Positions 2,710 through 38,326 of a stretch of 64,000 nucleotides of DNA are shown here, in pieces. Positions within the stretch are counted from its first letter, which is position 1. Each line of letters begins with the position of its first letter. Origin of the DNA: Panorpa germanica (taxonomy: Eukaryota > Arthropoda > Insecta > Mecoptera > Panorpidae). Both the position numbers and the translations under genes were made by a program. Location: assembly GCA_963678705.1 (NCBI GenBank), contig OY783205.1, forward strand, positions 5,828,001 to 5,892,000. The letters run 5' to 3'. The notes under the pieces are model-generated. The model was not told the DNA's origin. It worked only from the letters and a program-made list of their open reading frames with translations, and searched no databases.

Positions 2710-2727
2710 AAAAACGCCGAGACGAAG
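2710..2727 (+). other. Candidate 18-nt micro-exon (KNAETK in phase 0)
   Basis: Flanked by TTAATTTGCAG and GTAAGT. Eighteen bases, open in all phases. It is the first strong site of the array and the longest. Confidence 0.5.
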
Positions 2728-3443
2728 GTAAGTTTCAATGTCTTAAAGAAATTATTGTTCCATAAATAACGACATACAAGTATACCAGAGAACAAAACGA
2801 AGTACAGTCAATAATGGAAGTTATTGCATAAACGAAAGCAAAATGATGTAATTAGGCTTCGGCAGCCCTGGATCGTTTTAAATATTAATGACTAAACACG
2901 CATTGATATTTATCCTATGTTTGAGGCATCGTTTTGGTTACTCGTATAAATGCGTTCTGTTAGCCAGCAGCCTCGTCTTCAGTATGGGTTGGGTCTAACG
3001 CCAATCCGTGCATTGATGTTGATGCTTGTGTGAATGCTGATGTCGCTTGCCCTCTCTCTAACGCTTACATACATTAACAGAATGCGTTGACCTGTGGACA
3101 CTGTACATTATGCGTGCGTCAACGTCTGTGATGTTGTAAGAGAAGAGTTGGGGGGAGGTGGTGGAACGATTAAAATATTAGAGCAACGAATGCTTAATCT
3201 TAAAAAAATTATTAATTGCTAATAATAATTTTGATTGAAAAATGATTTATTGACAGTTTATTTAAATTTGTTGCATACAACATGTTTAATATTTACATTT
3301 AATTAGAAATTTCTACAATTCGAGTTGTGAACGTTTGAGGCACTCCTCGAATAGAGAGATAAGAGTCAGATAAAATATAGTGACAAAGAGAACCTTTATT
3401 TTATATATTTTGGACTAATTTATTTATCTTTTATCTTTTACAG

Positions 3444-3452
3444 AAATTAATC
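3444..3452 (+). other. Candidate 9-nt micro-exon AAATTAATC
   Basis: Acceptor TTATCTTTTACAG, donor GTAAGTAAAG. It reads Lys-Leu-Ile in phase 0. In the phase where one base completes a codon it contains TAA, which excludes that phase. Confidence 0.5.
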
Positions 3453-4180
3453 GTAAGTAAAGACGCTTCCTAAGATCGAGCTTAAAGTAAATATGAACGG
3501 AGGCGACTATGAAACTTCAAGAAGGAGTTCACAGGAACATTGTGGCATGAATACAATACCAGTGCAAGTCCTAGTCATCACAATATTCCATGTACCATCG
3601 ACCAATCTAACACATTTCCCATTGATTTATTGTTTTATGATTTGTTCTCTCTCGTGGTAATAATACAATTCACTAATTTAATTTATAAACCTTCATTACT
3701 CATACTTCGAGCTCTATAAAGTTGTAAAGATAACGCAAGAACAAGTTAAAAAACTTCAAAGAAATTGTTATAACAATTCAAGTAAGCCCACAATCAGTGG
3801 CTACTGTCGTTAGTGCCTGTGCAATATGAACCATTTAGCGAAACAGTTCGCTTCGTTGTCCTTCAAGTCTGCCGTTTTACAAGCTGGAACAATGTGACGT
3901 CGGTCATACTGATATAAATCGTATGGAGCGACGAACTCCGACTAGCCTTGCACTTCTTCTAATTCAGTAAACTGCATGTGGTTTATAGACTCATTTTGCT
4001 GACACTTACTGGTTTGCAGTCACAATCACAACTAAATCCATACTTAAACTGCAAAAACTTGCTTCCTTTATGAAAAACGCACAGGAAATGCTTGCATTTG
4101 TATTATATTTACTAACTTTACTCACAATTACGTAAATCCTATGTTTCTAACAAACTTTAATTAATATTTAATCGTTGTAG

Positions 4181-4183
4181 CTG
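4181..4183 (+). other. Candidate 3-nt micro-exon CTG
   Basis: Acceptor ATTTAATCGTTGTAG, donor GTAAGAAAC. This is the first three-base site, at the left edge of the densest cluster (4.2-7.2 kb). Confidence 0.45.
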
Positions 4184-4525
4184 GTAAGAAACTAACAATA
4201 AGTGATGCATGTTTAAAAGTAGTCTTAGGTTTGTTCGCGTTAAGTGCACGAGTAAAATGCTTTTTGTATTTGCTGTCGAGGAAAGGTAAAATGTTGATTG
4301 GAAGGAATTCAATTCGTAATGCGCCGTCTACACTACTGCGGTATCTAAATTTTAGAAGGTTCATAAATCTTTTCAGTCTGTTACGAAGAGTCACACAAAG
4401 CTTAATGCGATCCTGCATGGAAGTTGCCAACTTCCATCCAAAGCTAAAGATGTTTTGTTGTAATAGCTTGGAATGTCATTAATCGACTTGTGATTGTTTC
4501 TTTTCTTAACGCTGTCAATAAACAG

Positions 4526-4528
4526 AGC
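4526..4528 (+). other. Candidate 3-nt micro-exon AGC
   Basis: Acceptor GCTGTCAATAAACAG, donor GTAAGTAAAAG. The same triplet recurs at 6561-6563 in an unrelated context. Confidence 0.45.
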
Positions 4529-4622
4529 GTAAGTAAAAGATTCTACCGTGTCTTATCTCTTTAGCGCAGACTTAATTGCAATTATTCATGTCGATATATC
4601 GATTTAATTTGTCTGTGAACAG

Positions 4623-4625
4623 AAT
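4623..4625 (+). other. Candidate 3-nt micro-exon AAT
   Basis: Acceptor TTTAATTTGTCTGTGAACAG, donor GTAAGGAAC. It lies only 97 bases after the previous site, about the length of a short insect intron. Confidence 0.42.
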
Positions 4626-5494
4626 GTAAGGAACGGATTTATTTATATTATTAATCGTTACGTGCATCTTAATCGCGAAGTTCTATATTTCGATAAAGCA
4701 GTTAACTTTTGTAAAATAATTGTGTTTACATTTCCATGGGTTTTGATTTGTTACGGTGTAACCGTTCTAAAGTCACTTGATCATCCTGAATGTCGCTCTT
4801 CTATTTTTTTCATTCTTAGACATATTTTGCTTTTATCTCATTTACTTCCTACAATGTTCTGTCTAACTGGAACTAACGTTGGAGTTAACTAAGCGGTTAG
4901 TTCACTGCTTTGCCACGTCATCTGCTAATTCACTCGCAGACATTGCTTTACCATTGGAACGTATGTGCAAGATTCTTCTTTATTGGCTTTTCCAATCATT
5001 TGGTTTAGTACCCTTTCATTTTTTTGTTTGATCCACATTATTTCCTGTATCTTCCTTATAATGAAAGACAATAAAGACGTTCTTCACATTGCATTTTAGT
5101 TTTTCATATATTTAATTTAGCTCCACGTTCGACAACTCACACTAGACGTTGACACTGTTGGCGGTATTTATGCTGCCTGGCGGTATATACTCCGTTCTGG
5201 ATTTATGAGATGAGTAACAGAATGTTTACACCTGCATATTAATGAATTGTAGTCAGTTGTAGATTTGCAGCTATTATGTCATTGGGGGGTGCCCCGATTT
5301 TGCACTATAATTATTTGTAGTTTTCTTGGCTTTTAGAAAAAAAATTATTTGTTGAATGTACGGTATAGTTTGATTTATGTATATATTTTCCTAATTATGT
5401 TAAAATATGTTATTTAATTAAACTACTAATGATATTCTCCTTTTCTTTCAACAATTTTCATTACTTTCCATTACTGGCGACATTTTACTCGCAG

Positions 5495-5497
5495 GCA
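5495..5497 (+). other. Candidate 3-nt micro-exon GCA
   Basis: Acceptor GACATTTTACTCGCAG, donor GTAAGTAATCC. The triplet and donor match the site at 18949, but the flanks differ. Confidence 0.5.
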
Positions 5498-5581
5498 GTA
5501 AGTAATCCTACCAGATGAGGTTTTTTTTGTAAGCTTTGATAAGGTGAAATCTATAATTAAAAATTCTTTTTGTAACTGCAG

Positions 5582-5584
5582 CAG
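5582..5584 (+). other. Candidate 3-nt micro-exon CAG
   Basis: Acceptor ATTCTTTTTGTAACTGCAG, donor GTAACTTGC. The donor is weaker (GTAACT). CAG followed by CAG also makes a NAGNAG tandem acceptor possible. Confidence 0.35.
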
Positions 5585-5671
5585 GTAACTTGCATTGATT
5601 ATAGAATTGTTCATGTTAGACATGCACACACTGACTATCTGTCTAACTTATTTGTGTGCTCTGTTATTCAG

Positions 5672-5674
5672 CGG
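5672..5674 (+). other. Candidate 3-nt micro-exon CGG
   Basis: Acceptor TGTGCTCTGTTATTCAG, donor GTAAGTACTG. Both signals are strong, and the neighbouring sites lie about 90 bases away. Confidence 0.5.
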
Positions 5675-6178
5675 GTAAGTACTGTTGGGCCTTAATTCTA
5701 AATTCGACCGCAGCCCACATGTCAAGGACTGTACCATTAATGCTCTCATGATGACGAAGTGACGCGACGTTTCAATGCTTGAAGACAGTGCAACTGAATT
5801 GTAGTTATGACAACGTGTTATACCATTAATAACTATGATACTAGTCGTCTGCAGATTCTTACTTATCTCCATGAACCTTCATTGAACAATGTATGATTTT
5901 CCAAATTTGAATTCTTATTTACATTTATTTAATATTCAGAGAAGAAGAAGATTCTTCTGTATAACAAACTGCTCGACATGACACATACACCCCCGTTCAC
6001 AGTGCCTTCAGCCTATTTTCACCTTGTTAGCAACGAATACGATTTTATCCATTCACTTACACTTGTTGTCTTATTGATTCGGTGTGAATTACTGGTTAGG
6101 AGATTCCAGACCCTCCATCTATGTAAATATTCGCGTAATTGTTTATTGCTTACTGACTCCCTCTCTTTTATTTATCAG

Positions 6179-6181
6179 AGA
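6179..6181 (+). other. Candidate 3-nt micro-exon AGA
   Basis: Acceptor CTCCCTCTCTTTTATTTATCAG has one of the best pyrimidine tracts in the array; the donor is GTAAGTTATT. Confidence 0.55.
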
Positions 6182-6560
6182 GTAAGTTATTATCTGGCGA
6201 TATTATCAATGTTATTATTGGACTATTTTGCTGTTTGATCTACGGTTGAATTAATCGACATTATTGTCATCCATAGTGAAATAGGAAGTCTATGAACAAT
6301 GACGGATCATGTACTTGAAAGTCCCTTATTTTGAAATACTTTATTTTTAAACAGTGGGTGTAATGCGAATTCTTAGTGAATAATTTTAAATATAAATTCA
6401 CACAAGAGAAGAAACGCATAATTGGACACTTGAATGTAAGCCAGCTCACTCCGCAAATATGGCGGAGGGATCTCACAAACACCCCCATACATTATTAACC
6501 ATTCTTTTTGTTTATTTCTGTTTGGTTGCGTCTTCGCTTTATTCAATATATTAAAATCAG

Positions 6561-6563
6561 AGC
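6561..6563 (+). other. Candidate 3-nt micro-exon AGC
   Basis: Acceptor CAATATATTAAAATCAG, donor GTAAATTTATG. Both signals are weaker than at most sites. Confidence 0.35.
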
Positions 6564-6643
6564 GTAAATTTATGTTTTGTTGTATTTTAGAACAGTTGCA
6601 ATGAAATTAATTTGTAATGCTTTACGCACATTTCATTTAACAG

Positions 6644-6646
6644 CTT
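6644..6646 (+). other. Candidate 3-nt micro-exon CTT
   Basis: Acceptor CGCACATTTCATTTAACAG, donor GTAAGTTTGCG. It lies 83 bases after the previous site. Confidence 0.52.
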
Positions 6647-7187
6647 GTAAGTTTGCGTATTCAAAATGTCTAGAAAATTCAGATATTACAAAATATGCAA
6701 TGGTGTCCCAAATAAATAACATACAAATGATTACAAAAAATAGAAAGAAGTTAAATTACCGTTGAAATGTTTACTAGAATAGAATAGTTTTACTAATAAT
6801 GAAATGAATTTGAATCCGCGTCTATCAACAGCTCAACTCGCCCGCTCAACACAGAACATGAGCTGAGTAGTTTGGTTCTTTCACTTCACGAATTACTTTT
6901 ACCTAACATTGCGTTTTATTATTTAGCGAAGTCATTAAATAAATACAAAATATTTAAAATCTTTTACTAATATATTAATTAAAAAGTAACATGATAAATA
7001 ATCTTGCATTAAGAGTTTATTTACATCAGAAAACAGAAATTTATGCCAAGGACAATTCTTCTTATTTAATCCGACATTTTTTTGATCAATGTTTGTGGGT
7101 TAAGTGGGCATTTACAAGTGTAGGATCAATGGGACTTCATTTTCATTCTAATCATTTTGCAAATGTTAACCATACTTAATCACTCAG

Positions 7188-7190
7188 GGT
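7188..7190 (+). other. Candidate 3-nt micro-exon GGT
   Basis: Acceptor CATACTTAATCACTCAG, donor GTAAGTATATC. It is the last site before the Copia insertion at 7639. Confidence 0.5.
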
Positions 7191-7638
7191 GTAAGTATAT
7201 CATTTAATCAAATCTCTAAATAGTTAGAGCGAAACATTTTAGGTTAAATTACTTTTCTTGATTTACTGCGAATTTATAAGTCACAATTTCTCTCTCCAAT
7301 GTATTTATTCATTTGTATCTACTGACTATTATAATTCTCATTATTCGAGTGAATAATTTGTAACTATGAAAAGTATTGTCCTCATTGACAGTTTAGTGTC
7401 CCAGTTAAATGAACGCATCGTCCAACCCCGAGTTTCACACGGTTAACATCTGAGCCGACACTGGAGATATCTTACAATAATAATGACAATCTTCACTTTG
7501 AATTCCAATTCCATGTTTGTGGGCTGCAACTCTATCTCGTGACTTGTTTTTAGTTCTTTCAGTTTGAAATCATCTATTCAAAATTTCTTGTAGTGATTAT
7601 TTGGATATTGATAAGAACTGGATAATTTGCAATCCTTC

Positions 7639-7833
7639 TGTTGGATTTAAATTTAGCGCCCTCTAGGGTTTGACTATTCTACCTTTCTTTTTACACTCGG
7701 TATTACTGTACTCTGTAATACCGTCCTACTATGTAATTCTATACTCTGTGACTCCATAACGCATGTGTACATTTTAATTAAATAATAAACCTGATTAATA
7801 TAAATTAATAGTTTATCTCTGCTAAATATAACA
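7639..7833 (+). repeat. 5' LTR of Copia copy 1
   Basis: 195 bp, from TGTTGGATTTAAATTTAGCG to GCTAAATATAACA. It differs from the 3' LTR at one position by eye. The family's other copy, at 43.9-48.4 kb, has a related LTR of 209 bp. Confidence 0.95.
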
Positions 7834-7851
7834 GGTTATGGGCCCAGATAA
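7834..7851 (+). promoter_or_regulatory. Copia primer-binding site
   Basis: GGTTATGGGCCCAG directly abuts the 5' LTR. It resembles the site in Drosophila copia, which is primed by a half-molecule of initiator methionine tRNA (established for copia; inferred here). Confidence 0.7.
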
Positions 7852-7960
7852 ACTTAGAGACGTTTAATGTGTGTTTTTCGGAAAAGTGGATAAAGACTTT
7901 TAGTGTGGTGAACATAACCTTAAAAAAAAACGTGGCTGTTGAAACTGTTTCTGTTCTTTT

Positions 7961-10900
7961 TTGTGTTTAAAGTGTTCTCAACGAATAAAAATGGCATCGA
8001 ATAATTCACTGGCATTAATCGAGAAGTTAACCGGCCGTGAAAACTATTCGACTTGGCAATTCGCAGTGAAAACATACCTACAACACGAAGAACTATGGGA
8101 TTGTATTGAAATTAACCCGGCGTCACCCGCAGATTCAAAACGTGATACAAAAGCGAAAACAAAGTTAATTCTTCTGGTTGATCCGATCAATTACGTTCAT
8201 ATCCAAGAGGAAAACACGGCCAAAGGAGTTTGGGACAAATTGGCCGCAGTGTTCGACGACTCAGGACTTACACGCCGAGTTGGTCTGCTACGTGATTTAT
8301 GTAACACATCGCTCAGTGGATGTCAAAGTATAGAAGAGTATGTGAGCAAAATTATGTCAACTGCTCACAAGCTGCGCAACATTGGCTTTAAAGTGGACGA
8401 CGAGTGGCTCGGGACATTGCTGCTCTCCGGTCTGCCCGAATCATATCAACCAATGATTATTGCGATCGAAAGCTCAGGCACAAAAATAACTGCAGACAGT
8501 GTTAAAGCAAAACTATTGCAAGATGTTAGAAATTCAGACAACAAAACAACGGCTTTTGCTGTCAACAAGAAGTTTCATAACAACTCTGTAAACAAGAAGT
8601 TCAAGGGTCCGAGATGTTATTCCTGCAATCAATATGGACATAAACGTTCTGAATGCAACAAATACAAAACCATGAACAAGACTCAGAAACCTAGCTCTTC
8701 TTATGCTGCTGTGTTTGTTACATCATCCCACTATGATGATGCTTGGTACATAGACTCCGGTGCTTCGGCACATATGACTAAGACCAAGAAAATAATTGTA
8801 AAGGAAACTACCCCTAAAACAAAGAACATTCGTGTTGCTGATAACAAAGTGTTATCTGTGCAAAGCTCAGGAGATGTCAGCTTAAATATTTATGACCAAA
8901 ACGGACAAGAGAATAAGATTCTGTTCACAAATGTCTTATATGTTCCTGAATTGGCAACTAATCTGATATCTGTAAGCCAAATTATTAAAAATGGAGGCCA
9001 AGTGAAATTTGATACCTCAGGCTGTGTGATCATGAACAGCAAGAATCAAATTATAGCAACTGCGAGCATTGTAAACAACATGTACCGACTGAACATGTCT
9101 GAAAGCCTAGCGCACATGTCCAGTGTTGAACATGAACAAGATGCTTTTTGCTGGCACCAGAGGATATGACATCTTAATTTCCAAACTTTGAAAAAATTGT
9201 CTGATAACACAGAGCATTTAACTTTCTCAGGAAATACAGAAAATCTGAAATGCATAACTTGTAAGGAAGGAAAGCAGACACGGTTACCTTTTAAAAGTGA
9301 TGGATTAAGAGTCACTAAACCCCTAGAATTGGTTCATTCTGATGTATGTGGACCAATGGAAACCCAGTCTCTCGGTGGGAGCAGATATTTTTTAACCTTC
9401 CTAGATGAATATTCCAAGAAGATTTCAGTATACTTTCTTCACAACAAGTCTGAAGTGCTCAGTAAATTCAAAGAATTAAAGCAAGAAGTTGAAAATCAAT
9501 TGGATGCTCGTATAAAGGTTCTTCGTACAGACAACGGACTTGAATACGATAACAAAGCCTTCTCTGATTACCTGAAAGGTGCCGGAATCATCCATCAGAC
9601 CACCACACCATACACGCCTGAACAGAATAGGACTGCGGAACGCATGAATCGGACACTGGTTGAAAAAGCGAAGTGCATGCTACTCAACGCTGGTCTACCG
9701 AAGTTGTATTGGGCAGATGCAATACACACTGCTGCTTACATCATCAATCGTTCCCCAACCAAATCCTTAGCTTTCAAGACTCCTATGGAAATCTGGTCTG
9801 GACGCAAACCAAATGTTAATCATATGCGTATATTTGGCTGTGAGGCAATGGTTCATCTACCTAAAGAAAAACGCAGAAAATGGGATCCAAAGGCTCAAAG
9901 AATGATCTTCATCGGATACTGCGACCATACAAAAGGATACAGATTCACATTACCAAATACTAGAAAGGTAATAAAGAGCAGAGATGCTACATTTCTTGAA
10001 TCCTCAGTGAAAAGAGATTTTGTTTCGGTAGAATTGAATGAGACAGAAACTGAAAATGACAAAACAAATACAAGAAAAGAAGATGTAAGAGAAAATGCAA
10101 AAACGGAAGAGGACAGCTTGATTGACAACGACACAAATTCAGAAAATTCATATGAGACAGAAAAAGGAAACAGGTCAACATCCGACAGTGAATACTTACC
10201 TAACACCAGAATTGATTCTCCTCCTGTCAGTAATGTGACATTGAGACCAAGAAATAAAACAAAAAATAAGAATTTCAACTGTCCATGTACTGAAGGACAT
10301 ACTCATCTGTGTTTATTCTCATCCTGTGTTCCTGAAACATATGAAGAAGCAGTACATTCAACAAATAAAAATGAATGGATAAAGTCAATCAATGAAGAAC
10401 TTGATGCACATAAGAAAAATGAAACCTGGACATTGATAGAAAAACCTCCAAATGCCAAAGTGATCGGTAGTAAATGGGTGTTCCGAATAAAAGAAGAGTC
10501 AACGGGTCCACGGTTCAAATCGAGACTTTGTGCTAAGGGATATGCACAAACCGCAGGTATTGACTACACAGAAACCTTCACTCCGACGGTAAGGTATGAT
10601 TCAATACGTTTATTACTTTCCATGGCTGTTCAAAATAAACTTAAAATCTTACAACTTGATGTAAAAACTGCATTTTTATATGGTGAACTTGAAGAGACTA
10701 TATTTATGACTCCGCCTGAAGGTCTATCCTGTGAAAACAACATGGTATGCAAGCTCAACAAGTCGCTGTATGGTTTCAAGCAAGCCCCCAGAAGCTGGAA
10801 TAAGAAATTTGACTCAATATTAAAGAAATTTGGCTTCATCAACAGCAAAGCTGATCAATGTGTGTATGTTGGTCATGTCAATAATGAGAAATGTTATCTT

Positions 10901-11877
10901 TGTCTGTATGTGGATGATGGCCTACTATTTTCTAAAACTGAATCCACTCTGAAAGAAATAACCAAAGAACTACAATCTGTACTGGAAGTAAAAATATTGA
11001 ACACACCAAGTAATTTTGTGGGCATGCAAATTGAGATATTTAGCAACGGTATTTTTATACATCAGACCAAGTATGTGGAACAACTGTTAGAGAAGTTTAA
11101 CATGACTGATGCTAACCCGAACACTGTTAATAGTCAAGCTACAAAAGGAAGATGGAGAACCAGAGAAAAACTATCCTTATAGAGAAGTTGTAGGTTCTCT
11201 TATGCATCTGGCTACAGTCAGTCGACCAGAAATTATGTTTGCCGTAAGCCTGGTGAGTCGATTTTTAAGTTGCTATATCAAATCACACTGGAATGCTGTT
11301 ATGAAGATCTTCAAGTACCTGAAGGATACTAAAGATTATGGCCTGAACTACTCATCAACATCAGAGCCACCAGCTGTTACTGGTTATAGTGATGCTGATT
11401 ATGCAAACGATATTGATACAAGACGCTCAGTTACTGGCTACGTCTTCATAAAGAATGGTGCTGCTGTAACATGGTCAAGCCAACGCCAACAGACGGTTGC
11501 TCTGTCAACAACAGAAGCTGAATTTATGGCCGCCTCTGCTGCAACAAAAGAAGCTATGTGGATAAAGCAAGTGTTAAGTGATATTGGTGAATATAAACAA
11601 GACACTATGTGTTTACATTTGGACAATCAAAGTGCCATCAGTGTAATTAAGAACATAAATTTTCATAAAAGATGTAAACATAATATAAAAATATAAACTT
11701 AATATCATTAAGTATCACTTCATAAAAGAAAAATATTCTCAAAAGATTATAGATCTTAAATCTGTAAGCACTGCTGATCAATATGCAGATATATTAACTA
11801 AAGCATTGTCAAAAGATAAATTCCAATTCTTAAGATCTAAACTTGGTATGGTTAACTACAACTCTTTTGTTAAGTGA
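7961..11877 (+). pseudogene. Copia gag-pol fossil, copy 1
   Basis: Recognisable parts in order: the Copia gag domain with TGRENYSTWQF near 8020-8060; a CCHC zinc knuckle CYSCNQYGHKRSEC near 8615-8656; a protease motif DSGAS near 8755; the integrase core near 9330-9800; reverse transcriptase with YVDDG near 10905; and RNase H with GYSDADYAND near 11380. The order gag-protease-integrase-RT-RNase H is that of Ty1/Copia. The reading frame is interrupted in about three places, so I call it a fossil, though close relatives may be active given the LTR similarity. Confidence 0.9.
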
Positions 11878-11978
11878 TATGTTAGAATATCTTGTACTAT
11901 AACTTGATTAATATTTTCATGTTTTTTGACACTCAATTAATCATAATTTGTTGTTAGAATGTCTAAATTTAGAGGGAG

Positions 11979-12173
11979 TGTTGGATTTAAATTTAGCGCC
12001 CTCTAGGGTTTGACTATTCTACCTTTCTTTTTACACTCGGTATTACTGAACTCTGTAATACCGTCCTACTATGTAATTCTATACTCTGTGACTCCATAAC
12101 GCATGTGTACATTTTAATTAAATAATAAACCTGATTAATATAAATTAATAGTTTATCTCTGCTAAATATAACA
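11979..12173 (+). repeat. 3' LTR of Copia copy 1
   Basis: 195 bp, same ends as the 5' LTR, preceded by the purine tract AGAGGGAG and followed by the CCTTC target duplication. Confidence 0.95.
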
Positions 12174-12365
12174 CCTTCAATGCTCCAATTTGGTAGATAC
12201 CAATCAAAAATTGAAATACTTGCAAAGTATAAAAGTTGTAGCCGTCGAACTAAGCATTACGCATTCTGAGAACAAGTAGCAAATTTTCAGGGTTTCAGTT
12301 TTGACAATATTTTAGGTTTATGAAATATTTCTGGCTGTAATGTAACTGTAACAAATATTTAAAAG

Positions 12366-12584: not shown

Positions 12585-12587
12585 CTT
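12585..12587 (+). other. Candidate 3-nt micro-exon CTT
   Basis: Acceptor CCATTACTATGGCTAAGCAG, donor GTAAGTGTC. The branch-point-like GCTAAC resembles consensus text upstream. Confidence 0.42.
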
Positions 12588-14296: not shown

Positions 14297-16367
14297 TAGT
14301 ATATTTCTTTATTATTAAAGTGAGGGAAATTACTATTTCAATCGTTAATAAGTTCTGTAATATTGCGAATTGATCAAAAATAGTTGTAAATTTATGTTTT
14401 GATAGCCAACTCTATCAATATTTAGTGCAGTTTTATTAAATTTAGTTATGGTTCACAACCCAATTGGCATCATTAATTATCACACGCAGATAAATAATAA
14501 AATATGGCGTGATTTTTGTCACACTTCATTAGTATCCGTATCTAATCGATATACTCATATATTCCCTATGTAGCATGTGAGTATCACTTGCTGTTTAATA
14601 TTGATATTTATTTTCACTATAAAAGCTAAATTTACATTCAAGTAGTTAGTACACAAATGAGCTTTCGTCATGTTAAATAAACCATTTTACACAAAATCAG
14701 CATTAGAACTTTAAAAACGGTTCATTATTTCACGAACAGGGGGTGAGAACATTTTATTAATAATCCTAATACGTACAAAACCATTAGAGTGAACTTAGCA
14801 ACGTTACTACGATTAGAGCTTGATCAAAAGATTTAAAATTACTAATATTTCAACCTTCATAAAATGGGGGTTATTCCGATTTGCAATTTGCTGTGATCTT
14901 ATAAATGATCGTACCTTCTAAATTAAAAATTAAACATTATGTATATCTGTCATAAGGCTCATTCATATAACATCGTTTGGAAATATTAGGCGATCAATAA
15001 ATATTTTCAAAATAGGGACTAATGCAAGTTCACACAGTATCGGACTTCATAATGAATTCCCTGAGTCTCTAAGAAAAAGACGGCAATCAAATGACAAGGT
15101 TTTGCAGCAAAACTAAATGGTGTACAGTATTTAGCCTACCTCTACGTGTCGAATGTAATGGGCCATCCAGACCAGCGCGACCTCAACATTTTTTGCAAGA
15201 GGTTGTACAACACGTCCAAATCGATGTTACATGTAACTTATACATCGACACCCATCGTACGTATTCATTCAACCAGTATTGTATGTTTAGGAAAAAAATA
15301 ACAAAAGTGGGGGTTTGTTCCTAGGTTTCATGTATTCTGTACTAAATAGTGTGTGTAGTGGGTTTTAGTCTACAAAGGATTTAGCATTTACTGACACGGT
15401 GTCGGTACAACAAAAATACTTGAATGCGTCATAGAGTTTTAAAGATCAATGCCGTATAGTGTGCTGAGATCAGCCCTTTTAGAGATCTAGCACCTTTTTC
15501 AATTTCAAACAAAAGGTGGTTTGTGACCTGTTGTCGGTAACAGGCGTCTCCCAGAGAAAATAACTTCTAATGTCTGCAATAGCTCAAATACTCGCACCAA
15601 TGTTATGTGTGAAAGACACGTTAATTAATGATGCATTTAACTATTTTTCATTATGTTTTATCAAGTAATTACCCAGAAAAACATACACTGATGTGAAACT
15701 CATTTATTACACATAGAAATTATACATTGACTGGTTTAAAATAGAAATACATGACCGTTCATTTCGGAGTTCAAAAGAATAAGAAGGAATCAGACGCTCT
15801 CCAACCGTTAAGCGGTAGAAGGGGTAAAAGTAGTTCCAGCATAGCGGGATGATACATACCATATATGCCAGATGGATATGATATAAATGAATCTATGTTT
15901 AATTCATAGATGTCACTATGAATGTTACAGTAATACAACTTAAAACTAATGAAGTTATATAACACAAAGACTTAATATTAGACATACAGGAATATAATAA
16001 ACTCAGAAATAACGTGAAATATTAATTTAATAAAATGTATTGTAACTAAAATATCAAAAGAACGTGAACTATGAATGAAAATATATGAATGTTGAATGTC
16101 GCATGTTGGAGTCGCACCGGTGTGGAAGACGCATAACGTTGATCACTAGATAGATAAATTCCAATAGGCTCACCATTGCTTGAAATCAATAGTTACTTAT
16201 CGAACAGTGGCCAAGCAGCACCAAGGCTCTTACAAAGGGACACGAAGCTCTGGCGCTATTGTCCTTAATACAAGGTTTTAATGCTATAAACTGCAAAAAA
16301 TAGCTGGTGGAAACACATTTTACTTGCGTGTTTTTATTTCGCAATTTAATTTATTGAATTATTAAAG
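14297..16367. other. Unassigned AT-rich DNA with one micro-exon candidate
   Basis: No gene or repeat recognised apart from the site at 14740. The 15040-15330 stretch is somewhat richer in G+C and carries a short open frame (77 residues) that I do not recognise. Confidence 0.3.
14740..14742 (+). other. Candidate 3-nt micro-exon GGG
   Basis: Acceptor TTCATTATTTCACGAACAG, donor GTGAGAAC. Confidence 0.4.
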
Positions 16368-16370
16368 CTC
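16368..16370 (+). other. Candidate 3-nt micro-exon CTC
   Basis: Acceptor TTATTGAATTATTAAAG, donor GTAAGTGTTAT. It is the first of three sites within 245 bases. Confidence 0.42.
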
Positions 16371-16607: not shown

Positions 16608-16610
16608 TGT
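16608..16610 (+). other. Candidate 3-nt micro-exon TGT
   Basis: Acceptor TTATTTTTGTTTCTTCCTGTAAAG has a strong pyrimidine tract; the donor is GTAAGTCATTT. Confidence 0.5.
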
Positions 16611-18948: not shown

Positions 18949-18951
18949 GCA
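18949..18951 (+). other. Candidate 3-nt micro-exon GCA
   Basis: Acceptor TTAAAATTGTTAATTACAG, donor GTAAGTATCAATAGG. Confidence 0.5.
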
Positions 18952-22919: not shown

Positions 22920-22922
22920 AAG
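22920..22922 (+). other. Candidate 3-nt micro-exon AAG
   Basis: Acceptor TTAATTATTTCTTTCAACAG, donor GTAAGTCGAC. Both signals are strong. It is the first site after the inverted-repeat transposon. Confidence 0.55.
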
Positions 22923-23305: not shown

Positions 23306-23308
23306 ATG
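23306..23308 (+). other. Candidate 3-nt micro-exon ATG
   Basis: Acceptor CCACTACTTCTTCAATGCACAG, donor GTGAGAAACTT. Confidence 0.45.
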
Positions 23309-23799: not shown

Positions 23800-23802
23800 C
23801 CG
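23800..23802 (+). other. Candidate 3-nt micro-exon CCG
   Basis: Acceptor TATAATTCATTTCAAAG, donor GTAAGTTGAC. The same triplet and donor recur in the 204-bp repeats at 37.9 and 38.1 kb. Confidence 0.45.
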
Positions 23803-23887: not shown

Positions 23888-23890
23888 AGA
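23888..23890 (+). other. Candidate 3-nt micro-exon AGA
   Basis: Acceptor AACGTTATGTTTTACAG, donor GTAAGAATTC, 88 bases after the previous site. Confidence 0.5.
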
Positions 23891-30115: not shown

Positions 30116-30529
30116 TAAATTTTTTTAATATTTTTAATATACATTTCTGTGTTAAATCACGAAAAAGCAATTAGATTGATTTTGCCGTTCATTTATAGCC
30201 ATTTATGCCATTCAATTTTATTTGTGTTTTTATAGTTTTTTCAAGTGTTCATATTTTAATACTTTCCTTATAAGTTGCCCAAACAAAAAATTTAAATTTG
30301 TGCTTAGACAATTTTCAAAAAGGTTACTCATACTTGCCTATAGGATTCTTACTAAAGACATGGTGAATGTTCTGCACTTAATTATAAAAGATGTCAACTC
30401 TGGAAAATTTAGTCTTATATCAACAAGAAAAAACATAGTATACTCGTAATTCGTAATTAATACTTATTTACGTCCAATTCATTTATTTGCTTACTTTGCG
30501 TTACTATTAATATATGCGAATGCACACAG

Positions 30530-30535
30530 ATAACG
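30530..30535 (+). other. Candidate 6-nt micro-exon ATAACG
   Basis: Acceptor TATGCGAATGCACACAG, donor GTAGGTCAAC. This is a diverged duplicate of the site at 27957-27968: both share TTGCGTTACTAT, then GAATG, ACACAGATAA, GTCA-CA and a following TAAATAAATAT. The middle is 6 bases shorter and the donor is weaker, so it may be dying. Confidence 0.35.
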
Positions 30536-30762
30536 GTAGGTCAACAACAATCGTTCTATAAATAAATATCACACTCATTTATTGATGTATTTGTTATTTT
30601 TTTCATTAGAAATTGACCAAATCTGGATTTAACTTTTAGATTTCGTGGTAGAAGCTACCCTCTTGGCCCACCTCTTGAAAATAAGAGCAAAATAAGATAC
30701 ATTTTGTGATTCAGAATATTGTTTTTTTTATATAATATTACATAATAATCATTTATAACAAA

Positions 30763-31289
30763 TCTATATAAATAAAAATGAAATGCTGTTCATTGGTAAG
30801 CGCATCGCTTGAGAACGACTTCACCGATTTGGCTAATTTCTTTATAAATATTCGTAATAGCCCAATAGACGTATTGGACCATAACATTCGTAATGCAATT
30901 CGCAATCAGTATTACAACAGAAAACTTTTTAATATGCATTGTACGTATTATAATAAATAAACACAAAGCAAAAAAATACTTCGAATAAATTTAGAGTTGA
31001 TCACGTTTTAAATTATTATTAAATTTCTTATTGTAAAATTCAAATGAAGGAAATGAAAGTGACAATATCTCCTGCATTTTCGAAATAGTGATTTTTAATC
31101 AAAAACCAAGAGAAAGTTCTCTGAAAGTGTTTTTCTTTCTGTATTGATTTTTGCTACTATTTGCGCAAATGTCGTTTGATAGTTTATTATCAAATTGTGA
31201 ATCAAGCTAATATTGAAGAAAAAATGCTCAGTTGAATTGCGAATTTTTTTTTTTAATTTTAACAGAGCATCATCTGTCGGGTCAGCTAG
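30763..31289 (+). mobile_element. Helitron-like short repeat (527 bp)
   Basis: It starts A|TCTATATAAATAAAAATGAA and ends GTCGGGTCAGCTAG|T, matching the A^T insertion and TC...CTAG ends of Helitrons. The CGAGAACG-like and ACCGATTTGGCTAAT stretch near 30810-30840 is common in arthropod interspersed repeats. An open frame of 60 residues inside is not a gene. Confidence 0.5.
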
Positions 31290-32458
31290 TTAATAATAAT
31301 AACTCTTTATGAGAATTTTTGGCTAATTTTTTAATTTTTAAATTTAAAATTAAAAGTACATCAAAGCAATAGTGTTTCCAACAATTATATTCCTAAATAA
31401 GAAGAACGTGAAAAAATGATGATTTGAACCTTTAAAAAATGTTTATAAATACTTCATTTTAATTTTTTAACCACATTTAATAAATTTCACCTGGAACGCA
31501 AAAAAAGGATGGATTTTTAGGTAAAACGCTGAATTTAAATAAAAATTTCAGTAATACAACCCCTTTATTATACATCCACATTTACTATATTTTGCGTAAA
31601 ACTTTTTAATATGAAAGTTACAATGAAAAATAGTTAAGAAAAGTTATGTAGATAATAACATTATCTAAATAATTGCGGTAGAAATTACAGTTTCCAAAAT
31701 AAAAAAGATGGTGGTAAAATATGGCCCTCGCTTCAAACACTTTTAATCACGCACCACATTTGACCCTTGTACGTGATGATAGTAAAGATGGCTGCATACC
31801 CAAAATGCATTGTACAACCACCTACTACCACGCACATTCAGAGCGGGGAAACAAGTGCTTTGGGCTTCGCAAATATAGACGGCCTCCAACTCAGTAAGAC
31901 TGTCCTGTCTTGACTATCTAACTTGTTTTAAATCCAAAAAAATAAATCATTAATTTGTATTTATTGTTTTTTTTTTTTTTTAATAATACTTCACGGACTT
32001 CTTTATTCGACGGGTTTTCACAGTATTTACATTTTGAATAAATTTTTTTTACGGAAAAATGTCAGCAAAATATCAAAGAGGATGGTGTAAATAAAATATT
32101 TAATCTACCATAGCTCCTACGTTTTGCTAAATTGAGCTGCCATTTCCGTTTTTATCACTATTCTTCAATTTTTATTCAATTCAAAGTAACTGTTTTATTA
32201 TCTCACCCCACAAGTTATGTTTATTTCTAAAATCTCTTAGTTCTGTACCACCCCTCTTGGTGGGGGCTCTTAATTCTACTATAAAATTTTATTTATTTAT
32301 TCATGTCCAACTAACCGAACTATTGTGCTATCGCGAACTTTATTTTACTTTATTTATTACTTATACAATTTTAAAACGTTATTACGCAGCGCCGCCTAAT
32401 TTAAATTTAAGCTGAAAATTAAAAAATCAGCTAATAAAATACTAACATTAACAATGAA

Positions 32459-32524
<66 letters not shown>

Positions 32525-33122
32525 GGATCATAAAAATAAATCAAGCAAACAAAGAACTTATAACTATGATACCCGGTCTAGGAAAGTCATAAAGAATGTG
32601 ATTAATGAGGGTATATTTTAAATAGAAACCAAGTGAAAGGTCGAAGCAATTATATTGTGTGAAACTCTAAACCACTGACTGAATATGTAAGGGGACGCTT
32701 ACGGAAATTAAAAAAACGTGTTCTTAGAAGTAATAAATAAACCTATTAAGTCTAGCTGAAAACTAATGTAGGACTGAGTATATAAAAACTAGAATTTAAG
32801 ATGGTGGGTGCATTCATTGTTCTGTATTTGTAAAGTAAACACCAACGTTTATATTGTAACCTTATTGTATTATTATCATTATTATTTCATCGTTATTATT
32901 TTATTCAATAAATGTATTAAACCAATTATGTGATTCTTTATCATCCTGACAAACAAACTAAGATATTACATAGTTGAATATTAATTGAATTGACATTTGC
33001 CCTAAATTAAATAAGAGTACCTTGATTCCACATCAGATTAGCGGATTGGTTATTGTTTTCCACATAAGAAGTTGGATAGTTCTCGTTTTCCACATCAAGA
33101 TTGGGTTGGTACTCTCGTTTTC

Positions 33123-33124
<2 letters not shown>
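31290..33124. other. Unassigned DNA with a G+C-richer island
   Basis: Mostly AT-rich. 31690-31930 is a richer island with two AAGATGG motifs (31705 and 31794) like Pho/YY1 sites, but there is no supported open frame. 32385-32460 matches 61020-61095 (TAATTTAAATTTAAGCTG then AATCAGCTAAT), part of a dispersed repeat. A (TA)n run lies at 32463-32521. Confidence 0.35.
32463..32521. repeat. (TA)n microsatellite
   Basis: About 59 bp of uninterrupted AT dinucleotide. Confidence 0.95.

Positions 33125-33195
<71 letters not shown>
33125..33195. repeat. (TA)n microsatellite flanking the Gypsy element
   Basis: About 70 bp of AT dinucleotide immediately before the 5' LTR. Its partner is at 36509-36560. 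Open frames reading IYIYIY across it are artefacts. Confidence 0.95.
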
Positions 33196-33199
<4 letters not shown>

Positions 33200-33556
33200 A
33201 CGAATTTACGGGCGTAGGAACATATAAAAATCATAGTTATGAAATATTAACCAGAAATAGCAAAATATGTTGCACATCCCGGATAGATCATTGCATCACA
33301 TACCCATCACGGCGACACAAACAAAAAGCATGTTTATTTCGATTGTTTTAGTTGTAATTGTTTTGGTGAATAAAAGAGGTCTATGAAAAGTGTGAATCCT
33401 TCGGATTATTTTAATTGTGGCTATTCATTAATTTAAAAGTTTCAACGCGACTTAATAGTAAAAAATAATTACTCCGCTCGGTAATTAGACAGAATTCCAG
33501 TCGCAGGCGTATTACGGCACATAAATAGAAGGCTAAGATTAAGAAAAATTGTAACA
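33196..33556 (+). repeat. 5' LTR of the Gypsy-type element
   Basis: It starts TATTACGAATTT at the edge of the microsatellite and ends ATTGTAACA. It shares long stretches with 36112-36500, for example GTGAATCCTTCGGATTATTT. Confidence 0.8.
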
Positions 33557-33879
33557 TTTGGTGTCAGATGTGGGGTAGCTACAGTTGAGACCGCTGCAGA
33601 GAGAATTCCAATGAAAAAAACGGTAAAATTGATTTCAGAGAAATATCTAGAAAATTACAGAAAATTACAGAAAATTACAGAGAATTCCAGAACCTTCCAG
33701 AAACTTCTAGAAAATAGTTTCAAAACCAATTGCAACGCAGCACACAATAAAAATGGAGGAACTATTAAAAGAAATTAGAGAGATGAAAATAGTAATTAAA
33801 TAATAGACAGAAAAGTCTAAAGAAGAAATCTTCAAAAAGTTCAAAATTACAAAAACAGAATTTAGCGTTCCAAGTACAG

Positions 33880-34836
33880 TTGCAAGCTGTAGAAGATGCT
33901 TGCAGAGGATCTGAAAAGGAATTAGAAAGGCGCATAGACAAAATAGAAGATAATGTGGCGCAAAGCCTTCAATCAGTAACTATACGTAAAGTGCTGACAG
34001 AGACTAACATTCAAGAAATAGAAGAACGCATTGAAAACGTCTAAAAAAGTGGGAAGCAACTAGCAGGAGTGCAGTTAACACAACTTGCCGATAGAGTGCA
34101 AGTTCTAGAAAACTCACAAAGTACTAGGATTGCGAAAACCAGCACTATCAAGCCAGCCCATTACGATGGATTAATCTCTTGGCAAGAATATGAGGTCCAA
34201 TTCGCAGCCATAGCGAAATTCAATGGTTGGAGTGACAAGGATTGTGCAGGCCAGTTAGCAGCCATATTACGGGTCTCGGCCCTAATCGCATTTCAAAACA
34301 TAAATTCGGACGAACGGCGCAGCTACTCTGCTTTGGAAACAGTTTTAGAAAGACGTTTTGGCGAAGAGAATTTCTCTGCTCTATATTGGACGCAACTTGT
34401 AAACAGAAAGCAAGCTCCAGGAGAAAGGTTAGCAGACCAGGCGACTGACATTGGACGTGTACTGAACCTTGCTGTAGGCAGAGCACCCAGAGATACACTA
34501 GGAACCTGGGAAGTACAATATTTCGCTAACGCTGTAAAGGAGCGAAAAAGAAGAGAGGCCATATTATTAACGAACCCGAAGAGCATGAACGAAGCTTTAG
34601 CGACCGCGCTTCAGATGGAAGCAATAACACACGTTACTAAAGTGTGCTGCACATGGAGCGCTTTCACTGCATTGTCTGCTCCTCAAGCTACTCCTGCCAT
34701 GGGCGAAGAACAGGATCTGAATCAAGCAAATCGAAACAGAAGCTGTGGTAATTCAAGAAGAAGAGGATTTCAATGGCCTTACGGCAGGGGAAGAAATTCT
34801 ACTGCGAATGGCGCAACTTCCCTCAACACTAACTAA
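33880..34836 (+). pseudogene. Gypsy gag-like fossil
   Basis: The 255-residue frame from 34069 reads as a retrotransposon gag: a coiled-coil-like start (LADRVQVLENSQS), then a capsid-like region with YDGLISWQEYEVQF and RKQAPGERLADQA, and a basic Arg/Gly/Asn-rich end. Helical text upstream on the same strand probably belongs to it too. Part of a broken element. Confidence 0.65.
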
Positions 34837-34849
34837 CAATAGAAGGGAA

Positions 34850-35025
34850 TGGGTCCAAACAGGTGAAGACTGAAAAACCTCCCTAGCGGGTCCAAACAGG
34901 TGAAGACCGAAAAACCTCCCTAGCGGGTCCAAGCAGGTGAAGACCGAAAAAGCTCATTTGTGGGTTCAATCAGATGAAGACTAAAAAAGCTCTCTCGTGG
35001 ATTCAATCAGGTGAAAACTAATGAA
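34850..35025 (+). repeat. About 37-bp tandem repeat inside the Gypsy element
   Basis: Four to five diverged units of GGGTCCAAACAGGTGAAGAC followed by AAAAACCTCCCTAGC lie between the gag-like and integrase regions. Confidence 0.7.
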
Positions 35026-35089
35026 CATATGCAACCCTGCAGAAGGTACGGCAGAAGTTGTACTGACCCCGGTTTAAAAGATAATATCA

Positions 35090-36041
35090 GTGGAACGACC
35101 GTGTCGAAATTGTGACGCTTGTACGGCCAGTAAAGGACCCCAACAGAGAAATCGAGGACCGATGCATACCTACACCGTGGAAGCACCGTTCGAAAGAGTT
35201 GGAATGGACATTTTAGAACCACTGCCACGGAGCCGAACCGGCAATAAGTACGTGTTGATCGTGGTGGATTATTTTACCAAATGGTCTGAAATACTTCCTA
35301 TCCCGAATCAAGAAGCAATTACTGTTGCAAAAGTCTTTGTGAAAGAAGTAGCATCCCGTTATGGAGTTCCCCTAGATATACATTCGGATCAAGGAAGAAA
35401 TTTTAAAGCCGCCGTATTCCAGCAGATTTCGTAACTTCTGGGAATGCATAAAACCCGAACTACACCATTACATCCGCAGTCGAACGGCATGGTTGAGAGA
35501 CTAAATCGTACAATAGAAAAATAACTGGTGAAATGTGTCAATGCTAATCAAGACAATTGGGACGAGATGATACCTCCTTTTCTACTAGCGTATCGGTCTG
35601 CGGTGCATGAAGCAACGCGGCAGACTCCAGCCGCTATGCTAATGGGACATGAACTCAGGTTACCCTGTAACATAATGTCCTCCTCCCGAAAGAAGGTTTA
35701 TTGGCAACGAAGAATACTGCGAAACCCTAGTGCAAGAATTAGAAGAGATTTACAAATTTGCAAGAGAGCGCCTTCAGTTAGCGACGGATCGCTCGAAAAC
35801 GCGTTATGATTGTGGGAAACAAAGTCAGCGCTTTTGCAGAGGTGATGTGGTATGGCTTTACTATCCTAAGAAAAAGATAGGACGAAGCCCTAAGCTACAA
35901 GCTAAATGGGAAGGACCGTATTTAATATCGGCTGTCATTTCGGACGTGATCTACAAGGTACAGAGGTCATCCCGAGAAAAATGTATGATTGTTCACCGAG
36001 ACCGGCTCGCAAAGTACGACAGTGAAAAAGCTCCGGAATGA
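35090..36041 (+). pseudogene. Gypsy integrase fossil
   Basis: It contains the tail of an HHCC finger (CRNCDACTASKG), the integrase core (GMDILEPLPRS, VVDYFTKW, HSDQGRNF), a VERLNRT-type motif and a C-terminal chromo-like GPYLI region near 35900. These match Ty3/Gypsy integrase. The region is broken. Confidence 0.75.
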
Positions 36042-36111
36042 AAATTAACTGAATCATCCGCCCGATAAAAATTATAAGCTCTCGGGACGAGCGCTTTAAA
36101 GAGGGGGAAAG

Positions 36112-36500
36112 TGTTGCGAATTTAGGGGCGTAGGAACATATAAAATACATAGTTATGAAATATTAACCAGAAATAGCAAAAAAGGTTGCACACCTCTGGA
36201 TAGATCATCGCATCACATACCCATCACGGCCACATAAACAAAAAGCATGTTTATTTCGATTGTTTTAATGGTAATTGTTTTGTGAATAAAAGAGGTCTAT
36301 GAAAAGTGTGAATCCTTCGGATTATTTTAATTGTGGCTATTCATTAATTTTAAAAGTTAGAACGCGACTTAATAAAAAAATTAAAAAAATAATTACTCCG
36401 CTCGGTAATTAGAAAGAACCCCAGTCGCAGGCGTATTACGGCACATAAATAGAAGGCTAGCTGCTACGAACACAAGCCGTCGTCTAGTAAAATTGTAAAT
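36112..36500 (+). repeat. 3' LTR of the Gypsy-type element
   Basis: It starts TGTTGCGAATTTAGGGGC after the purine tract and runs into the second (TA)n block. It is about 28 bp longer near its end than the 5' LTR. Confidence 0.75.
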
Positions 36501-36504
36501 ATAT

Positions 36505-36508
<4 letters not shown>

Positions 36509-36560
<52 letters not shown>
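36509..36560. repeat. (TA)n microsatellite
   Basis: AT dinucleotide run after the 3' LTR, probably the other half of the block at 33125-33195. Confidence 0.95.
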
Positions 36561-36561
<1 letters not shown>

Positions 36562-37480
36562 CCTATCCCTCTTAAAATCATCATAGTTCTTTTAAGGATG
36601 TTAAAACCTTCAATATCTTTAATTCCTTTTTGAATACTATTACTCGTACAATTATACAGTTGCCCCTTTTCTAATTTACAGCACTTAGTTAAAAGAATCT
36701 GTGTGAGTGTCGTTATGCCACTTTTAGACGATGCTCTCCCACGATGTGCTTCGGATAAGGTTTCTTGAAATAATATTAAATTACTCTTTGGAACATCTAG
36801 ATCTAGTGATCGCGCCATTGTAGCCACTGCTAAACAAGTACTAGATTGGTTACACTGTGTCTTTGGATCCGATTCCCGGACCCGACCATATTTTACGAGG
36901 ACGATAAGTTAACAATGGATTTAACTGTTCAATTGGACTAGGTTGCTTAGTATCTTGCTGCGTCGTCTTCTTAATTCTCTGATTTTAAAGTAGTTTACTA
37001 AATTTAGTACAAACGTTGCATACGCAATATACACGGAAGAATTTCACTTTTCTCGGAGACTGTACCCAATATAAGTAAGCTTACTTAATATAAATGTTAT
37101 TTATACACAAATGTTTAGTGTTTTAAGAAAATATTAATCATATTAATTAATCTTTGTACCTTTATTATTAACTGGACAAAAAATGTAAAAAAGATCAAAA
37201 CTTCATATTTGTTCTTTCACTAAACATGAGTTTTTTTAATATGTAGAACCGTTCTCGAGATATACGTTAAAATGATAACTTTTGTATACATTGTAGACCT
37301 CCTCCAATGTGACCTGCCTTAAAGTATTGTTGCTATACTCGTGTTTATAAATGAAATATTCTTTGCAAAGGGAAAACAAAATGTAATTTATCCGCTGCAT
37401 GGAGTCGGAGTTTGTACATTGCTCTAGACTCCATCTCCTGCTCCACTGCTCCGACATTTACACGACTGACACTCCTAAAA
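36561..37480. repeat. Dispersed repeat shared with 61.5-63.0 kb
   Basis: Three blocks recur in the same order and orientation. CCCCTATCCCTC...ATCATCATAG at 36560 pairs with 61499; TTTTAAAGTAGTTTACTAAATT at 36985 pairs with 61847; CTGCCTTAAAGTATTGTT at 37313 pairs with 62851, and it continues to the CTGCTCCGACATTTACACGAC block. I see no coding motif and no ends, so the class is unknown. Confidence 0.7.
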
Positions 37481-37915
37481 AATGTGCTACGATATTTACG
37501 CTTCATCAACCATTAAATAATTTTAATATCAATTTTTCTTTCGCAAGTTCATTTTAATATTCTAAACAAATTATTTTGACTAATTTTAGTGCGCAAATTC
37601 CGAATATTTTACTTTCTGGAAATTTGATAATTTAGACCTCCATCTTGCAACAATTTTAAGGTAACGAAACAAAACGGTTTTATTGACATACCTCCTTAGT
37701 TATTGCATCTACATATACAGTTACAGCTTAAAATATATATAAATTTAATTTCTATCAACAATGTCACTAACTAAACACCTTTCTTTTATTACCCGATGGC
37801 TAACGTGTTAAGTCAAAGTTCCTGGCGTTTACTGCGAAGCTATCCGTTTGATATCATTACCTCACATTAACACAACGCTTTGTTTTTCTATTCTATCAAC
37901 AAATTACGCGAGTAG

Positions 37916-37918
37916 CCG
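37916..37918 (+). other. Candidate 3-nt micro-exon CCG (204-bp unit 1)
   Basis: Acceptor AAATTACGCGAGTAG, donor GTAAGTAAACC. The pyrimidine-rich TTTGTTTTTCTATTCTATC lies about 20 bases upstream. An earlier AG would give a 6-base exon. Confidence 0.42.
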
Positions 37919-38119
37919 GTAAGTAAACCAAAAAAACAATTTACTGTCGTTTTACTTTATTAATCCTACAGTTAAATTCCTGTTTTATTAACTGATGGCC
38001 AACATGTTATGTCTGAGCAATGTCTTTAGCGTTGACGGAAAAGCTATCCATTCAATATCATTACCTCACATTAACACAACGCTTTGTTTTTCTATTCCAT
38101 CAACAAATTACGCGAGTAG

Positions 38120-38122
38120 CCG
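38120..38122 (+). other. Candidate 3-nt micro-exon CCG (204-bp unit 2)
   Basis: Identical splice signals and triplet to unit 1. Confidence 0.42.
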
Positions 38123-38323
38123 GTAAGTAAACCAAAACGTTAATTTACTGTCGTTTTACTTTATTAGTTGTACAGTCAATGTCCTTTATTATCAACTGAT
38201 GGCTAACATGTTACGTCAAGTCAATGTTCTTGGCGTTGCTGGCGAAGCTATCCATTTGATATCATTACCTCACATTAACACAACGCTTTGTTTTTCTATT
38301 CTATCAAAAAATTACGAGAGTAG

Positions 38324-38326
38324 AGA
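38324..38326 (+). other. Candidate 3-nt micro-exon AGA (204-bp unit 3)
   Basis: Acceptor AATTACGAGAGTAG, donor GTAAGTAAACC. The triplet has changed from CCG to AGA while the donor is unchanged. It is the last site of the array seen in this window. Confidence 0.42.

Follow-up and report, generated by a model that had tools for sequence, protein, structure and literature searches.

A run of three-base exon candidates on chromosome 2

The stretch of DNA analysed here, called the window, is 64,000 nt of chromosome 2 (5,828,001-5,892,000) of the German scorpionfly, Panorpa germanica. The cited passages of the genome report give the assembly as 464.2 Mb in 21 chromosomes and 254 scaffolds with a mitochondrion of 16.39 kb, and announce the annotation for later (PMC11464959). 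The plus strand of the window carries a series of sites where a 3' splice site, three bases and a 5' splice site follow each other directly, and each can be read as a predicted exon of one codon. The exact pattern AG-NNN-GTAAGT was found 15 times on the plus strand and never on the minus strand, and all 15 sites were inside positions 2710..38326. This recount agreed with the 15 sites of an earlier sequence-only reading of this DNA. Its estimate of about 26 sites in all was near the number obtained with splice-site scores, where 22 of the 32 sites listed for the gene at a score of at least 3.5 fell in the window. The end of its range, 38326, was exact, but its start, 2710, opens an 18-nt exon candidate instead of a 3-nt one. 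Its remark that the flanks differ and do not form one repeat was true of most sites, but not of those at 37914, 38118 and 38322, which belong to a tandem repeat with a 204-bp unit.

Spacings of 0-2 and 4-15 bases between AG and GTAAGT gave 0-6 plus-strand sites each in the window. When the window was shuffled 100 times with its dinucleotides preserved, the mean count was 2.06 for both strands together and the maximum 6, and none of the 100 shuffles reached 15. The genome-wide rate, obtained by scanning 464,208,970 bases in 249 contigs, predicts 0.88 sites per strand per 64 kb against the 15 seen (Poisson P 4.6e-14; P is 1.3e-11 if the tandem array is taken as a single site). With generic scoring of acceptors and donors, 10 plus-strand pairs were found at spacing 3, compared with 0.4 expected, and none on the minus strand; at the same threshold, every other spacing from 0 to 36 gave at most two pairs on the plus strand.

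An exon encoding MAIFKASLGCLIAVFVALFMASAFQT lies upstream of the window, at window coordinates -26229 to -26151. It was judged by eye to be a signal peptide, in the window family only; its donor is GTGAGT, placed after the first base of a codon. It is followed by candidate exons that measure 21, 39, 24, 39, 18 and 9 nt and then, starting at 4179, by the 3-nt exons. The joined reading consists of the signal peptide and a Ser- and acid-rich sequence. Its only stop is given by the last two sites, 76888 and 76947, of which at most one is real because the 59 bp between them are too short for an intron.

The first exon had 17 matches at 16 places, its own locus included, with 14 of the places on chromosome 2 and two on chromosome 15. 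The donor was GGTGAG at 13 places and AATGAG at two, and the exon was lacking at one. For positions 4400-7300 of the window, 40 of 803 candidate matches were scored, and at least 14 other long copies were found, 12 on chromosome 2 and two on chromosome 15. Further short matches were present at four distant places on chromosome 2 (13.4, 15.2, 16.5 and 17.4 Mb), where six of the seven matching blocks surround 3-nt exons; the other matches were dispersed repeat. An alignment of the window with three copies covered seven 3-nt sites. The four sequences agreed in all 14 AG columns and, as aligned, in all 42 donor columns (+1 to +6); 36 of 36 without the CAG site is the cleaner count, because a 5-base indel there hides a donor change (gtaact versus gtagat). 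In the triplets, which had no gaps, 17 of 21 columns were invariant; the share was 86% in the 20 upstream bases, 82% directly beyond the donor and 46% in distant intron, where gaps occurred in 34% of the columns. By this measure, the paralogs keep the predicted splice sites better than other intron sequence.

The 204-bp unit is present in 11 plus-strand copies, three in the window and the rest, one of them partial, within 11 kb beyond it, and in four related minus-strand copies. Every copy on either strand has one 3-nt exon, thus duplication of the unit would add codons singly. The triplet had a mean pairwise difference of 0.60 among the 11 plus-strand copies, far above the donor (0.058) and the left and right flanks (0.154 and 0.19). 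The triplet was the most variable of 90 three-column windows in these 11 copies and ranked first of 183 when seven copies were compared over 185 columns. The codons of the array have diverged much more than the flanks that bear the splice sites.

The chromosome 1 run and clusters elsewhere

A second locus, on chromosome 1, has a dense plus-strand run at 1.22-1.33 Mb, with about 70 predicted one-codon exons in 107 kb. Within 140 kb there, the exact AG-NNN-GTAAGT pattern occurred 46 times on the plus strand versus twice on the minus strand. The locus is single-copy, and a 551-base piece of it had no other match in the genome. The base at -1 was C or T in 42 of 45 sites, and G was never found at -1 or -3. 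Donor variants were enriched at spacing 3 as well, namely GTGAGT (13 versus 0.7), GTAAGC, GTAAGA and GTATGT. Such base preferences and variants are typical of splice sites. With an acceptor matrix and a score of at least 5, this locus gave 71 sites at spacing 3, 0-1 at each of spacings 0, 1, 2, 4 and 5, and six at spacing 6. The same matrix, untrained on the chromosome 2 region, gave 28 sites at spacing 3 in 124 kb of that region and 1-3 at the other spacings from 0 to 6.

The distances between the chromosome 1 sites were analyzed at a score of at least 4 (74 sites, 73 gaps). No gap was shorter than 78 bp, compared with 3.7 expected (P 0.017), and ten gaps measured 78-130 bp, compared with 2.4 expected (P 0.0002); at a score of at least 6, six gaps fell in the latter class, compared with 1.5 expected (P 0.004). 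These limits were fixed after looking at the site list, and the sites themselves were not chosen by spacing. A lower limit on intron length would produce such a pattern. The longest gap within the run was about 12 kb.

We then joined 67 of the chromosome 1 sites (1.220-1.328 Mb) in genomic order, letting each exon begin at codon position 2, and compared the result with shuffled orders. The 66 codons contained no stop and nine Cys. In 100,000 shuffles of the order, as few stops were obtained in 0.5%, as many Cys in 0.12% and both in 0.003% (joint P 3e-5). The reversed order gave six stops and three Cys, the second straddling frame four stops, and frame 0 one stop. Decoy sites of spacing 4 gave five stops against a shuffle mean of 3.9, and the spacing-2 decoys were a degenerate, uninformative set. 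The donor was GTAAGT in 43 of the 67 sites and no triplet ended in AG. This test favours internal exons that start at codon position 2, and the open, Cys-rich reading in genomic order suggests that most of the chromosome 1 exons are joined together. Neither of the two predicted protein readings matched Pfam. Three weak PDB matches, the best of E 0.015 (C4b-binding protein), were taken as chance, and a search for the chromosome 1 protein encoded without introns gave one match of E 0.44. A 126-nt exon candidate, acidic and open in phase 1, lies downstream of the last 3-nt sites of the run (G000:C1:1333163, L021).

Similar sites are clustered elsewhere in the genome. The stricter pattern TAACAG-N3-GTAAGT had 106 matches. 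Among the 100 matches listed, 79 were outside C1 and C2; these formed 22 neighbour pairs closer than 100 kb, where about 1.5 were expected, and 20 of the 22 were on the same strand. Clusters were seen on C4, C5, C8, C13 and C14, again among the matches listed, mostly with differing triplets; the pair on C14 carried the same triplet twice. In the same acceptor context, spacing 4 had 53 matches with two close pairs, each with identical inserts, and spacing 0 (TAACAGGTAAGT) had 75 matches with three close pairs. A chromosome 3 locus, read in part, had the exons CGC, CTT and GGT with introns of 87 and 144 nt, and an inverted copy about 237 kb away had CGC, CGT and GGT. No DNA similarity was found between this locus and the stretches on chromosomes 1 and 2. 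From the clusters of sites, the one-codon exon architecture is probably present at several further loci.

Two-codon exons were rejected as a main class, as half of the readable matches listed at spacing 6 were one repeat hexamer. Of the 100 spacing-6 matches listed, 74 had readable letters; this hexamer stood in 37 of them and differed by one base in five others. Four of the 26 without readable letters were close together on C13. The dispersed repeat that contains TAACAGATCCTAGTAAGT (e.g. G000:C8:4097283-4161180) accounted for the 37 exact copies.

Interpretation and rival explanations

The sites quite likely represent serial one-codon exons, in a duplicated family of large genes for secreted proteins and in the chromosome 1 gene, that would be spliced stepwise. 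This view is based on the local, strand-specific excess, the paralogy, the conservation of splice sites and the phase-consistent reading on chromosome 1. Clustering, strand, spacing, paralogy, splice-site conservation and the open phase on chromosome 1 can be read directly from the sequence; inclusion of all exons, the order of splicing and secretion are what we infer.

In the gene model, exon 1 lies some 26 kb before the start of the window and would supply the signal peptide and end after codon position 1. Later exons would start at codon position 2 and have lengths divisible by three: 21-39 nt at first, 18 and 9 nt further on, and finally 3 nt in long runs, in which each exon would contribute exactly one residue. 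Since a 3-nt exon is hardly recognisable as a unit, splicing would be intron-defined and would proceed stepwise from 5' to 3'. The first splice would set a triplet and its donor, mostly a full GTAAGT, against the growing exon. That donor would then be spliced to the next acceptor, and so on repeatedly, in the manner of a ratchet by which each step adds a single codon. Judged by the U1 consensus, the donors lack their customary exonic portion, because none of the triplets has AG at its end, and the full intronic match to U1 may compensate for this. Residues would be gained through tandem duplication of an intron-codon unit, as in the 204-bp array.

Several points weigh against this interpretation. 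The longer candidate exons of the window gene were picked for being open in phase 1, so they are no test of that phase, and in the window gene the order test failed to reach significance (32 sites, one stop, P 0.21). Downstream, inverted repeats flank a region whose minus strand holds the 3' half of another, related copy; an inversion may therefore have disrupted the window copy, or the assembly may contain a misjoin at this place. On chromosome 1, no convincing first or last exon was found, and a signal peptide was likewise not found. The top-scoring triplet there is TAA, a stop in phase 0, and the chromosome 1 sites themselves served to train the acceptor matrix. The order test was devised after the reading had been seen; a stricter score left 52 sites with one stop and five Cys (joint P 0.036), and minus-strand decoy sites gave six stops against a shuffle mean of 9.4 (P 0.07). 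Spacing 6 was also clustered, with 129 matches and 12 pairs among the 100 listed, although only seven of the 12 were on the same strand, i.e. strands were mixed, and seven of the eight readable pairs had at least one member that was the repeat hexamer or a one-base variant. Outside the 204-bp array, the triplets evolve no faster than their flanks, and general hypervariability of the triplets was unsupported there.

Chance, composition or one dispersed repeat family is scarcely credible as an explanation. The bare pattern is flat genome-wide, with 12434 sites at spacing 3 and 12410 at spacing 4, so the sequence-only reading's spacing comparison came out positive for the minus strand (15 versus 0) but not for the raw genome count. 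This flatness comes from the concentration of the sites in few loci, and the excess is therefore local. The three window sites that share one array, the C14 pair and the dispersed repeat at spacing 6 also speak for repetition. Chance and composition were, however, ruled out by the shuffles, the generic-score pairs, the strand bias at both main loci and the excess over the genome-wide rate. A single repeat family was ruled out except for the three array sites; it does not agree with the chromosome 3 locus, with the mostly differing triplets of the clusters or with the mere two pairs at spacing 4.

The sequence-only reading had proposed serial or alternative one-codon exons in a gene and, as another possibility, recursive splice points, and it was borne out in part. 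Serial exons were supported by the chromosome 1 order test, the gaps between sites, the conservation of paralog splice sites and the same-strand clusters elsewhere. Ratchets or decoy exons in giant introns, whose triplets would never be coding in the mature messenger RNA (mRNA), are very improbable. Here, as at fly ratchet points, the acceptor is directly followed by a donor, many introns are long, and a stepwise order would be plausible under this explanation too. Ratchet points are zero-nt exons, but zero-nt sites were not enriched at the chromosome 1 locus (exact AG|GTAAGT: none on the plus strand, four on the minus strand) and were hardly clustered in the genome, as the three close pairs among 75 matches show, and the order of the triplets reads as protein. 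The ratchet idea does overlap with the stepwise 5'-to-3' splicing proposed here, in which the triplet would be kept. It is also unlikely, though less so, that the 3-nt exons are real but mostly alternative or mutually exclusive, which would yield many isoforms with single-residue differences. Skipping does not shift the frame when exons share one phase and a length divisible by three, and schistosome micro-exon genes (MEGs) are reported, in the passages cited, to vary through splicing of their central exons (PMC10526429). Against such optional cassettes, serial inclusion in genomic order gives the open, Cys-rich reading that beats shuffled orders, and the donors are mostly perfect GTAAGT.

We compared the serial one-codon exons with known systems, as described in the passages cited. 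The bicycle genes of aphids have tiny exons, nearly all internal ones starting at codon position 2, and the megacycle gene encodes 2092 aa over 118 exons in about 100 kb with a secretion signal (PMC9168663). The scorpionfly genes resemble them in their many tiny predicted internal exons, the start at codon position 2, fast-evolving relatives and a gene of about 100 kb, and, in the window family, in the signal peptide. The aphid exons are much longer, whereas here most are one codon, the insect order is a different one, and the likeness described here is one of architecture. Schistosome MEGs have 10-20 short exons, mostly of 15 nt, introns of about 0.1-5 kb and secreted products; their exons are mainly 6-81 nt, and the text puts the minimum at 6 bp but the abstract at 3 bp (PMC10526429). 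The predicted secretion, the exons in multiples of three and introns of about 0.1-5 kb would fit, but most predicted scorpionfly exons are below the MEG size range, and those passages describe no long runs of 3-nt exons. At Drosophila ratchet points, acceptor and donor likewise adjoin in long introns that are removed stepwise (passages of PMC6110457), but the zero-nt exon leaves nothing in the mRNA, while here three bases stay between the sites; no zero-nt site was found on the plus strand at the chromosome 1 locus. Inclusion of exons as short as 1 to 3 nt is on record (PMC4674806), with 3-nt and 1-nt exons as isolated cases in the passages cited, whereas the scorpionfly sites stand in serial arrays. 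Among the matches listed in a literature search that covered few subscription papers, no gene with runs of 3-nt exons and no link between scorpionflies and microexons appeared. As such runs are undescribed in the bicycle and MEG passages, we would place these genes as a new variant of micro-exon genes, akin to both families and more extreme, and a proven member of neither.

If transcribed as read, such a gene would spend more than 100 kb and dozens of splicing events on fewer than 100 residues, most with an exon of their own. It would test the spliceosome where exon definition seems impossible, because U2AF and U1 could hardly bind together to an acceptor and a donor three bases apart. It would also reveal, in insects beyond aphids, a way to build new secreted proteins one exon at a time, and gene predictors that cannot place 3-nt exons would miss such genes. 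The balance is about even for a genome-wide class of scorpionfly genes with mostly one residue per exon, tens of such exons in a row, a one-codon ratchet, growth by tandem duplication and a codon that diversifies in a kept unit. A role in saliva is a tentative and rather doubtful guess, made because many bicycle genes are overexpressed in aphid salivary glands (passages of PMC9168663) and Panorpa males may offer a salivary secretion as a nuptial gift (passages of PMC3783485). Fast-evolving salivary proteins of the male nuptial gift would be a candidate role for such a class.

Features of the window and minor observations

The features of the window gene are listed in Table 1. Rfam and transfer RNA scans of the window found nothing.

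Table 1. Predicted exons and associated elements of the window gene, in window coordinates (exact motif, AG-NNN-GTAAGT)
Feature	Position	Strand	Basis and comparison
18-nt in-frame exon candidate (phase 1: AA KRRDE G)	2710..2727	+	acceptor/donor score 6.9, open in phase 1
9-nt exon candidate	3444..3452	+	score 12.1
3-nt exon candidate CTG, donor gtaaga	4181..4183	+	score 5.0
3-nt exon AGC	4526..4528	+	exact motif; copies have AGC, AGA, AAA or ATC, with AG and GTAAGT kept
3-nt exon AAT, donor gtaagg	4623..4625	+	scored; unchanged in aligned copies; L056 has G before AG
3-nt exon GCA	5495..5497	+	exact motif; GCA in 3/3 aligned paralogs
3-nt exon candidate CAG, weak donor gtaact	5582..5584	+	scored; gtagat and 5-base indel in three paralogs
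3-nt exon CGG	5672..5674	+	exact motif; AGG in 1/3 paralogs
3-nt exon AGA	6179..6181	+	exact motif; AAA in 3/3 paralogs
3-nt exon CTT	6644..6646	+	exact motif; kept in the four distant chromosome 2 loci
3-nt exon GGT	7188..7190	+	exact motif; kept in L089, the sole paralog read there
copia-like retrotransposon within intron	7943..11696	+	open reading frames; identity judged by eye
3-nt exon CTT	12585..12587	+	exact motif, scored
3-nt exon candidate CAT, donor gtgagt	14574..14576	+	score 5.8
3-nt exon candidate GGG, donor gtgaga	14740..14742	+	score 6.3
3-nt exon CTC	16368..16370	+	exact motif, scored
3-nt exon TGT	16608..16610	+	exact motif, scored
3-nt exon GCA	18949..18951	+	exact motif, scored
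3-nt exon AAG	22920..22922	+	exact motif; similar paralog site AGG, matched by eye, unaligned
3-nt exon candidate ATG, donor gtgaga	23306..23308	+	score 7.6
3-nt exon CCG	23800..23802	+	exact motif, scored
3-nt exon candidate AGA, donor gtaaga	23888..23890	+	score 3.8
204-bp tandem array, one 3-nt exon per unit	37806..38432	+	repeat analysis
3-nt exon CCG, array unit 1	37916..37918	+	exact motif
3-nt exon CCG, array unit 2	38120..38122	+	exact motif
3-nt exon AGA, array unit 3	38324..38326	+	exact motif
possible 30-nt exon (AG EAACRESTK A)	59881..59910	+	score 9.2, open in phase 1, as read in the window copy

Beyond the 204-bp array, 179-bp tandem repeats flank a minus-strand copia-like element on both sides (39232-41112 and 48353-49007 of the window). 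Open reading frames of a Mutator-like transposase with a C-terminal exonuclease (RNase T) domain lie at 56106-58836. The inverted repeats past the end of the window pair 75394-77215 and 84254-88589 with 115228-122434 in window-relative coordinates on chromosome 2. Elsewhere in the genome, 19 further COX1-like matches were found outside the mitochondrial contig and are probably nuclear copies of mitochondrial DNA.

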